From the NCBI RefSeq assembly GCF_900113575.1, contig NZ_FOPV01000016.1, positions 1 to 64,000 on the forward strand: 64,000 nt of DNA, given 5' to 3'. The stretch is from Nitrosospira sp. Nsp14 (GTDB taxonomy: Bacteria; Pseudomonadota; Gammaproteobacteria; Burkholderiales; Nitrosomonadaceae). Shown piece after piece: positions 48,299-52,372 of the stretch (the stretch's first letter is position 1; each line of letters opens with the position of its first letter). A program made the position numbers and the translations under genes. The notes under the pieces are model-generated. The model did no database searches. It had not been told where the DNA came from and worked only from the letters and a program-made list of their open reading frames with translations.

Positions 48299-49762
48299 AT
48301 GTCGATTCCCCTACGCAGCACCCGCACGTCAATTAGCGCCCTGTTCCTCAGCTTGGCACTCATGTCGGGGGATATCGCCTTTTCGGCTGAACCCACCGAA
48401 CCAGGACGCGCATCGCTACCGTATAACAGCGTGGAACTGCCCGAAACCAATCCCGTCGTCGAAAGCGATTTCGGCACGACCGATTCGGACATGGATAATA
48501 GCAACATGGACGCGCACACCCGACCGGCGGATCTATGGGAACGAATACGTCATGGTTTCGCCATGGCTGAACTGGACAGCACTGAGGTACGACACAACGA
48601 GGATTTCTACGCAAACCGCCCGCAATATCTGAAGCGCATTATTGAGCGGAGCAGGCGCTATCTCTTTCATATTGTCGAGGAAGTGGAGCGACGCGGCATG
48701 CCCGCCGAAATCGCGCTGCTGCCGATGATCGAGAGCGCCTTTAATCCGACAGCATATTCCAATCGCCGTGCGGCCGGAATATGGCAGTTGATCCCAGTGA
48801 CTGGAACGACTTACGGATTGAAACAGAACTGGTGGTACGATGAACGCAGAGACATCATCGGCGCTACCCGTGCTGCGCTCGACTATTTACAAAATCTCTA
48901 TGGCATGTTCGGCGATTGGGAATTGGCACTGGCCTCATACAACTGGGGCGAGGGTGCGGTGGGCCGCGCGCTGGTGAAGAACCGCAACAAGGGACTCCCA
49001 ACCGATTTCCGTAACATGAAGCTTCCGCCTGAAACCCGGAACTATATTCCCAGGCTGATCGCGATAAAAAATATCATCTCGAACCCGGCAGCATTCGGTA
49101 TCGAGCTTGAATCCCTGCCCAATCAGCCCTACTTCGAGCAGGTTTCAGCAAAACGTCCTATAGATGTACGGCTGGCGGCATGGTTGGCGGACATCTCGGT
49201 TGATGAGTTCAAGGCGCTGAATCCGGCGCATAATCGACCCGTCATCAACACTGACGGATTAGATGCCCTGTTGATCCCAGTAGATAAAGTTGAAATATTT
49301 GCCGAGAATCTGCGAAATCACGATCGGCCGTTCGTGTCCTGGCAAGTCTATCAGGCAAGAGACGGCGATAACGCCGCAGAGATCTCGAAACGGTATGGAA
49401 TCAGCTTGCGAAAGCTGAGGGAAGTGAATGATCTGGGCAGAAGCGGCGAGATGATACCCGGTCAGACATTGCTGGTCCCTGGTAATGGAAGCGCCGGGAC
49501 CGCCGATATTTCGACGATGGCGAGTAAACCTGCGACGCCAAGATTACTCGAGCGCCACTTTATACATCTGGTGCGTGGGGATGACAGTTTGCATGAAATC
49601 GCTAGGCGCTATGGTGTCACTGTAGAGCAGATCAAGGCATGGAATGGAAATCCGAAACACCTCGTCATAGGCAAAAAACTCATCCTCCACCTTCCTGCCT
49701 CCACCGGAACAACTCCATCTGCGCCAGCAAATCGCAGCACTTCCCAAAAGAAACGAGCGTAG
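48299..49762 (+). CDS. mltD: membrane-bound lytic murein transglycosylase D with two LysM domains
   Basis: The 487-residue protein has a signal peptide ending near FSA (residue 30), a transglycosylase domain (about 115-260) with catalytic Glu145 in LPMIESAFNP, AAGIWQLIP and ALASYNWGEGAVGRA, and two LysM peptidoglycan-binding repeats (about 345-395 and 418-465). It cleaves murein glycan strands in the periplasm. No lipobox is obvious at the signal cleavage site, so it may be soluble or peptidoglycan-bound rather than a lipoprotein. The tail is Ser/Thr-rich and basic. Confidence 0.95.
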   Translation: MSIPLRSTRTSISALFLSLALMSGDIAFSAEPTEPGRASLPYNSVELPETNPVVESDFGTTDSDMDNSNMDAHTRPADLWERIRHGFAMAELDSTEVRHNEDFYANRPQYLKRIIERSRRYLFHIVEEVERRGMPAEIALLPMIESAFNPTAYSNRRAAGIWQLIPVTGTTYGLKQNWWYDERRDIIGATRAALDYLQNLYGMFGDWELALASYNWGEGAVGRALVKNRNKGLPTDFRNMKLPPETRNYIPRLIAIKNIISNPAAFGIELESLPNQPYFEQVSAKRPIDVRLAAWLADISVDEFKALNPAHNRPVINTDGLDALLIPVDKVEIFAENLRNHDRPFVSWQVYQARDGDNAAEISKRYGISLRKLREVNDLGRSGEMIPGQTLLVPGNGSAGTADISTMASKPATPRLLERHFIHLVRGDDSLHEIARRYGVTVEQIKAWNGNPKHLVIGKKLILHLPASTGTTPSAPANRSTSQKKRA

Positions 49763-49769
49763 CGAGCGG

Positions 49770-49786
49770 CCTGCCTGCCTGCCTGC
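49770..49786 (+). repeat. short tetranucleotide tract (CTGC, four copies)
   Basis: Seventeen bases of period four (C followed by CTGC four times) lie between the mltD stop and the end of the convergent PEP-CTERM gene. It is outside both coding regions as drawn and has no evident role. Confidence 0.6.
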
Positions 49787-49818: not shown

Positions 49819-50843
49819 CTAATTATCCGGTAATTCCGGAAAGCTTGCCAAACCCCGCTTCCGATAACGCACGACACACATTCCGACGAGTCCAAATGCT
49901 ACCAGGGCCAATATGGCTGGTTCCGGAACGGTACCAACTTCGGTTGGAGGGATGGGGCCGTCGTTTTCCCCGCTTGGGCCGTCGCCACCGCTACTTGGAC
50001 CCGTACCGCCATCTCCATCCCCCCCTTCGGGCCCAGCGCCAGGGCTGCCACTATTACCGGAGCCACCCCCGCCGGGACCGCCACCCCCACCGGGACTGCC
50101 GCCACCCCCCCCGGGTTATTGCCGCGATTGGGGTTTGTACCGTCAACGACAACACCGCCAATACCTCCGCCCGTCACGATCCCACCTCTGCCGAATCGGG
50201 TACCGGGCCCATTAAACCCAGTGCTGACGAAACCTGTATCCGCGCACAGGCTTTCGTGCCAACCGTGTTTGTTTGACTGCTCATTGTGCCATTGCACGCA
50301 AGCGTCGCGCGGGCCTCGTCGTACTCCAGCCGGTGCTTGTGCTGTAGCCGACCCAGTATCGTGGATTCTCTCAGAATGTTCTTCGGAAGGCTCCCACACG
50401 GCTGTTACGATACCCAACAACGCGAGGAAGTCGATGACCTCATTCTCGTCGTTGTCTAAAAGGGCGATTTGATCTGCGTCGCCAGCATCGTTCGGCAAAA
50501 AACCAAATGCGGGAAATCTCGTCAGATTTCCGTCGGGCCATGGCAAGCCAGAGGCCGAAGGGAACTCAAAAAGCAGAGCGAAGCCGTGTTGCGAATTCCC
50601 CAACGACAGAACCTTCTCATCGCCGGGTGGCCTTCCTAAATACGAACTGACGAGCAAAAGCGCGATCATCTCATCGGTTTTCGAGGCAACTCCAGAGATG
50701 GAGCTAATTCCCCTGTCATCGCCGCTCTCATCCTGGGCAAGCGTTATATCGTTGTAAGCCAGTGGAATCGCGTAAGCGCCCATGGAGATTAGCATTAATA
50801 AAAAAACGGCTCCGGACTTTAACAAGAATGGGGACATCTTCAT
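49819..50843 (-). CDS. PEP-CTERM secreted protein with frameshift at a run of eight G
   Basis: From ATG 50843 the frame encodes a signal peptide (MKMSPFLLKSG ... GAYA, about 25 residues), a mature region of about 190 residues I do not recognise (two Cys near 180-200), and a Gly-rich stretch. As sequenced, this frame runs on to a stop at 49899 with an atypical Ala/Val-rich end. In the next frame, entered by one extra G in the eight-G run (50105-50112), the Gly/Ser-rich linker continues and ends with VPEP at 49918-49929, a hydrophobic helix (AILALVAFGLVGMCVV), basic RYRKR and a stop at 49819. That is a full PEP-CTERM sorting signal, cut by an exosortase. Either the gene is frameshifted, the run length is misread, or the run switches the anchor on and off. 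Confidence 0.78.
50105..50112 (-). repeat. homopolymer of eight G in the PEP-CTERM gene
   Basis: Eight consecutive G on the coding (minus) strand, within a Gly-codon-rich region that also has a seven-G run (50020-50026). The number of G here decides whether the PEP-CTERM tail is in frame: eight puts it out of frame, nine or six would put it in frame. Confidence 0.9.
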
Positions 50844-51445: not shown

Positions 51446-52351
51446 CTATGCCCCGGTGCCTCGTGGTTGTCCCATTCGGCCGCTTTCAAAATCCAGGATT
51501 GCCTGTTTGATCTCTTCCGCCGTATTCATGACAAACGGACCGCTGCCGCTGATCGGCTCGTCAATTGGCTCGCCAGCAAGCAGCAGTATGGATGCTTCAC
51601 TTGCGCTTTCTATATTGATGTGGTCGCCAGCGCGCTCAAACAAACCAACCTCTGCAGTATCAACCGTTTCTCCGCTGCTTACGCTTACTGAGCCCTTGCG
51701 CACTACCAATATCGCGGTGTAACCCTCGGGGATCGGCAGGGATAATTTGGTAGGCGTTGTGAATTGAATATCCCATAAATTGATGGGTGTAGACGTCTGC
51801 GCCGGTCCTCGAACCCCAAGACATTCTCCCGCAATGACCCGCACATGCCCGCTCGCGGCGGGAAGAGCCACGGTGGGAATTTGATGGTCAGTAATGAGTT
51901 GATAGCGCGGCGGCAACATTTTGGCCTTCGCAGGCAAGTTAACCCACAGCTGCATCATCTCGAGGACGCCGCCCTTTCGCGCGAAATCGTGACCGTGAAA
52001 TTCTTCATGAATAATACCGGAGGCTGCGGTCATCCATTGCACATCTCCCGGACCAATTTTTCCGCCCCCACCAGAACTGTCACGATGTTCCACTTCGCCG
52101 CTGTAAACGATAGTTACCGTTTCAAAGCCGCGATGGGGATGGGGACCCACGCCCAGGGATTTCTGTGTCGGGGGAGATTCGGTTGGGCCAGCATAGTCAA
52201 GAAGCAGAAATGGGCTGATGGTCGGCCCCAAGCCTGGATAGGCGAAAAGCGTCCGCACAGGAAAGCCGTCCCCTACCCAGTGCTGATCTGCACCATGCAA
52301 AACACGCGCCAGCGTCTTGGACGCTCCTCCAGTCCGCAGATTCGGTAACAT
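51446..52351 (-). CDS. pirin family protein
   Basis: The protein has 301 residues from ATG at 52351, supported by GGGAG six bases upstream; a GTG seven codons earlier is less likely. It is a double-cupin pirin: the metal-binding GPHPHRGFETVTIVYSG and HEEFHG segments of the first cupin are intact, and EMMQLWVNLP follows. Bacterial pirins include quercetinases and modulators of other enzymes, and the role here is unknown. It lies about 20 bases after the SMR gene on the same strand, so the two are probably one transcript. Confidence 0.92.
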   Translation of the reverse strand: MLPNLRTGGASKTLARVLHGADQHWVGDGFPVRTLFAYPGLGPTISPFLLLDYAGPTESPPTQKSLGVGPHPHRGFETVTIVYSGEVEHRDSSGGGGKIGPGDVQWMTAASGIIHEEFHGHDFARKGGVLEMMQLWVNLPAKAKMLPPRYQLITDHQIPTVALPAASGHVRVIAGECLGVRGPAQTSTPINLWDIQFTTPTKLSLPIPEGYTAILVVRKGSVSVSSGETVDTAEVGLFERAGDHINIESASEASILLLAGEPIDEPISGSGPFVMNTAEEIKQAILDFESGRMGQPRGTGA

Positions 52352-52372
52352 GATGTTCTCCCATATTTGCAC

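Follow-up and report, generated by a model that had tools for sequence, protein, structure and literature searches.

Why does a gene that encodes a secreted protein and a complete surface-sorting tail carry the two in different reading frames, and is this a switch, an error or a loss? The question is raised by a locus of Nitrosospira sp. Nsp14, whose assembly (G000) comprises 3.36 Mb in 54 contigs, and from which the window analysed here, a stretch of 64,000 nucleotides, covers bases 1-64000 of contig C10. On the minus strand, at 49819..50843, the frame read-out and syntenic orthologs define a disrupted PEP-CTERM gene. Its N-terminal part belongs to a frame-0 open reading frame (ORF) of 314 residues (49899..50843, minus strand) which, from the ORF list and the sequence, encodes a signal peptide and a mature domain followed by about 69 out-of-frame residues rich in Val, Ala and Pro. 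The signal-peptide-like N terminus, MKMSPFLLKSGAVFLLMLISMGAYA, is read from 50769..50843 (minus strand), and the N-terminal part was assigned to no family by Pfam or PADLOC. A Gly-rich linker and the PEP-CTERM tail, 98 residues plus a stop, make up a second ORF (49819..50115, minus strand) in the -1 frame, which includes ...TEVGTVPEPAILALVAFGLVGMCVVRYRKRGLASFPELPDN and is open from a TAA at 50118-50116 to the stop at 49821-49819. The sorting tail itself (49861..49932, minus strand), VPEPAILALVAFGLVGMCVVRYRKR, lies in the -1 frame relative to the N-terminal part, contains VPEP, a helix and RYRKR, and matches PF07589 with 26.1 bits in the genome search and 24.4 bits in hmmscan (cut-off, 20.7) and TIGR02595 with 19.1 bits (cut-off, 16). 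The arrangement proposed in an earlier note on this DNA, an N-terminal part and a complete tail in adjacent frames, is thus borne out by the ORFs and by both above-threshold matches. Conserved neighbours are a LysM/MltD-type lytic transglycosylase gene (48299..49762, plus strand) and, on the opposite flank, a gene for a pirin-like protein (51446..52372, minus strand); 4.5 copies of the tetranucleotide GCCT occupy positions 49769-49786 of the window, between the MltD stop codon and the end of the disrupted gene.

The gene has the hallmarks of PEP-CTERM/exosortase sorting (EpsH, XrtA; Haft et al., 2006, PMC1569441), with a signal peptide at the N-terminal end and a PEP motif, hydrophobic helix and basic cluster at the C-terminal one, in a genome with two exosortases (PF09721 matches of 263.7 and 241.4 bits) and a complete-looking XrtA/EPS locus. 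It differs in that the tail and the secreted part are read in different frames, which leaves the product as assembled without a sorting signal; in 15 syntenic orthologs, by contrast, the tail is in frame with the N-terminal signal peptide. Exosortase cleavage of such tails was put forward by Haft et al. as their hypothesis.

The position of the break can be narrowed to a few bases. Because the tail frame is closed at the TAA at 50118-50116, the break must lie there or 3′ of it, and the frame evidence confines it to 50105-50118, an interval composed of TAACCC and a run of eight G (G8; 50105..50112, minus strand, read as C on the plus strand), without singling out the run. The earlier note had placed G8 within the frame-switch interval and had calculated that one added G would yield a 341-residue product; coordinates and frame arithmetic are both correct. 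Its further proposal, that gain or loss of a G switches the anchor on and off, holds insofar as the anchor is out of frame, the interval contains G8 and the lesion is single, but is not supported for G8 as a dedicated switch. The run sits in the first unit of an imperfect 18/21-bp tandem repeat encoding PGGGG units (50062..50115, minus strand) and leaves the length of that unit unchanged: read from 50115, units 1 to 3 are CCC GGG GGG GGT GGC, CCC GGT GGG GGT GGC and CCC GGC GGG GGT GGC, with every unit in the tail frame and of the same length. Moreover, the sole gap in the MAFFT alignment of orthologs with a length not divisible by three is AA-CCC, one base before CCC. Repeat register and alignment gap together imply that G8 is already of in-register length and place the missing base, most simply, just 5′ of the run, which makes TAACCC (50113..50118, minus strand), the tail-frame stop followed by a CCC codon, the most parsimonious site of a one-base lesion. 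As the gap was placed in low-complexity sequence, a lesion between AA and CCC is a preference, not a proof, yet register and alignment both point upstream of the run, and neither upholds G8 as the necessary lesion. Nor is G8 unusual for a Gly-rich linker, since synonymous shuffling of the linker's own codons produces a run of at least eight G in 41% of cases (P = 0.41). Were the run to gain one G, the frame would nevertheless be restored, so that reversion by slippage is possible.

Comparison across the genus places the break in a wider setting. Pooling the copies recovered in protein, MltD and queF searches, the syntenic locus holds 15 intact copies, two out of frame (the source gene and its ortholog in genome G021) and one short remnant (G016), while the same searches revealed no copy in four other genomes. 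The gene lies between the LysM/MltD and pirin-like genes or, where MltD is absent, beside queF, and nearly all 15 intact orthologs have the Gly-rich linker. In the two nearest relatives (G015 and G022), 65% identical in the N-terminal part, the gene is intact and has no G run at the corresponding site, so the tract is not conserved. The earlier note had reasoned that orthologs with an intact frame and no homopolymer would point to an error rather than a switch, and a comparison of run lengths finds the nearest orthologs to be of exactly this kind. In-frame G runs occur in the linkers of only two orthologs, those of G017 (G8) and G007 (G10). The G021 gene, from a genome assembled in one contig, has its PEP-CTERM tail shifted out of frame by a tandem duplication of 52 bp within the Gly-rich linker (L008:2140-2245; 2.0 copies, 96% matches; 52 = 1 mod 3), a break that is independent of that in the source gene and affects the same linker. 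This duplication and the runs in G017 and G007 identify the linker as a site of repeated length change in which G8 itself is not conserved.

The loss of frame appears to be recent. Relative to the ortholog in Nitrosospira sp. Nsp2, dN/dS is about 0.28 in the N-terminal part (0.204/0.729) and about 0.31 in the tail (0.171/0.546, over 35 codons only), from which the tail, as judged from its sequence, is coding and until recently evolved in its own frame as a protein. Signs of a pseudogene, namely several lesions and relaxed selection, were not found: there is one lesion, and dN/dS is about 0.3 in both parts. The gene resembles a recent pseudogene or loss-of-tail allele of a large paralogous family, many tails of this genome being already detached, but differs from one in having no second lesion and a tail conserved like the N-terminal part.

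Whether the run tells of something more general was considered from all 37 runs of at least eight G in the source genome, each read in its context: about 29 lie in intact genes, 4 are intergenic, 1 is ambiguous and 3 are at frame breaks. The intact genes include those which we take, with names assigned from sequence, to be rne, murA, sucA, yidC, gpmA and pyrC (the last with G9), and the assembly has G9 and G10 calls at other sites too. The three broken genes (G8 at C10:50105, C35:46058 and C8:110882) all belong to the PEP-CTERM/exosortase system and are all broken in the same sense. One is a HAF-repeat PEP-CTERM gene (C35:46058-46065; L087:11058-11065), two of whose orthologs have an intact frame and G6 at that place; the other, in the XrtA/EPS locus, is the TIGR03016 outer-membrane gene (C8:110882-110889; L330:4883-4890), a core gene of the XrtA locus that 21 other genomes of the genus carry without interruption. 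For both, ortholog alignment sets the indel inside the G run. Among coding G8 runs of the source genome, breaks thus affect 3 of 4 in PEP-CTERM/exosortase genes versus 0 of about 28 elsewhere (hypergeometric p ~0.0008, calculated by hand); genus-wide, about 87 in-gene long G runs were classed by a dicodon frame score as 80 in frame and 7 broken, the PEP-CTERM/exosortase system accounting for 4 of the 7 broken and 3 of the 80 in-frame runs (Fisher p = 5e-4). Both tests were framed after the pattern had been noticed and the p values are therefore descriptive.

Several further sites came to light in this survey. Three genes outside the PEP-CTERM system are broken at G9 or G10 (L221 near 1998, L218 near 2002 and L196:1501), namely a response-regulator-like ORF, an ADP-ribosylglycohydrolase-like ORF and an ORF without assignment; two of these sites are G015:C1:227237-227246 (L221) and G021:C1:2632641-2632650 (L218). 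A HAF-repeat PEP-CTERM gene of G007 (C14:143910-143919; L212:2001-2010) is broken at G10 and has a second lesion near the tail. Between two tandem PEP-CTERM genes, an intergenic tract of G reads G9, G11 and G7A in three genomes (L283, L284 and L285; G000:C8:38619, G022:C1:2022584 and G015:C4).

Do these breaks exist in the cell, or is the true sequence one base longer and the gene intact? The earlier note saw a one-base sequencing or assembly error as the main rival, and the intact orthologs, the 54 contigs and the liability of draft assemblies to miscount G runs would all suit it. A random error is nonetheless unlikely, for about 29 coding runs of eight or more G in the same assembly lie in intact genes and error does not choose genes by function, whereas the three broken ones all belong to one functional system (the hypergeometric p given above, by hand and post hoc). 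What survives of that rival is that nine G may have been systematically called as eight, which would explain the common sense of all three breaks, but G9 and G10 are called elsewhere, and among roughly 100 scored in-frame runs breaks at homopolymers are otherwise absent. Generally poor homopolymer sequence quality was likewise rejected, the other inspected candidate breaks, at shorter runs, having other causes: they are gene ends (window 2603, L331), neighbours of known breaks or a HAF pseudogene (L060), and L330:17486 is a gene boundary as read from the ORF list alone. Overall, we regard an error of either kind as improbable.

If the break is real, the cell might still read through it. Programmed recoding, by -1 ribosomal frameshifting on G_GGG_GGG or by slippage of RNA polymerase, would provide some full-length protein, and the break has a sense compatible with a -1 shift, the zero frame CCG GGG GGG GTG containing what is formally a slippery heptamer; the breaks in the HAF and TIGR03016 genes have the same sense. 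All-G heptamers, however, look poor in Escherichia coli, where G_GG.G_GG.U without a stimulator had the lowest frequency measured, 0.018% (PMC4066793), no stimulatory structure is apparent at the site (fold z-score, +1.08), and the intact orthologs need no recoding. With a poor heptamer, an absent stimulator and intact genes in relatives, the locus departs from programmed -1 frameshifting on each count, and we consider recoding very improbable.

Slippage during replication is a more serious contender. G8 would gain or lose a G, cells would switch back and forth between a form with the tail, processed by exosortase, and a form without it, and other genes of the PEP-CTERM system would behave likewise. 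The three G8-associated breaks in the same sense, the placement of the indel within the run in the HAF and TIGR03016 genes, the single lesions, the excess of this system among broken long G runs genus-wide (post hoc and descriptive, as stated) and the differing lengths, among three species, of the tract between the two tandem PEP-CTERM genes all speak in favour. Like known homopolymeric-tract contingency loci (Orsi et al., 2010, PMC2831843), the source gene encodes a surface protein and has a single lesion, with a homopolymer inside the interval to which the frame change is confined; it differs from them in that the nearest orthologs lack its run, which is in register with the repeat units, the alignment gap falling upstream, and in that the run comes late in the gene, where a shift would cost only the anchor, whereas tracts near the gene start have been argued to be the best for switching (Orsi et al., 2010, PMC2831843). 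The same authors found poly(G) of more than two bases to be generally underrepresented. Further points against slippage are that PEP-CTERM genes elsewhere carry long G runs in frame (those of G017 and G007), that several other long runs common to G015 and G022 have kept a constant length, and that detached PEP-CTERM tails are common in the source genome without homopolymers. A full-text search of one literature collection for PEP-CTERM together with phase variation, judged by titles and term counts, returned nothing on phase-variable PEP-CTERM genes. Phase variation by slippage is, in our estimation, unlikely; the broader proposition that short G tracts in this strain form joint contingency switches of the PEP-CTERM/exosortase system, with at least three genes simultaneously off by one base at G8, is more doubtful still.

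The wider repertoire of the genome offers a plainer context. It has 76 PEP-CTERM tails above the Pfam cut-off, of which about one in five lies in a short open frame, and the detached tails that were inspected belong mostly to HAF-repeat genes broken without a homopolymer; the idea that every detached tail lies at a homopolymer was accordingly rejected, most being decayed HAF-repeat genes without runs. The repertoire clusters with many HAF-repeat genes on C23 and C35, where a good part is detached or decayed.

The explanation that we favour, held with about even confidence, is a real, recent and lineage-specific one-base frame break in the Gly-rich linker that joins the secreted domain to the PEP-CTERM tail. 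Counted in its favour are the 15 intact syntenic copies, the independent break in G021, the AA-CCC gap and the otherwise clean homopolymers of the assembly; counted against plain decay is that three same-sense, G8-associated breaks in one system are more orderly than decay predicts. The gene would now yield a secreted protein with a Val/Ala-rich end in place of the exosortase signal, and the break would be one step in the continuing turnover of a large PEP-CTERM repertoire, in a linker that is mutable because of its low complexity. The loss may have occurred during culture, and any reversibility would be incidental; since the adjoining G8 permits such incidental reversion by slippage, the allele may flicker. 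A real recent loss with incidental reversibility fits with the fewest assumptions, and nothing indicates selection for, or upkeep as, a switch.

For the family, if there is no switch, the locus is a caution that Gly-rich linkers naturally carry G runs and that PEP-CTERM repertoires decay fast. Were switching to be shown, a soil nitrifier would be seen to vary exopolysaccharide-linked surface and flocculation traits, and if G tracts do act jointly on the PEP-CTERM/exosortase system, the exopolysaccharide-associated surface of a free-living ammonia oxidiser would be phase-variable.
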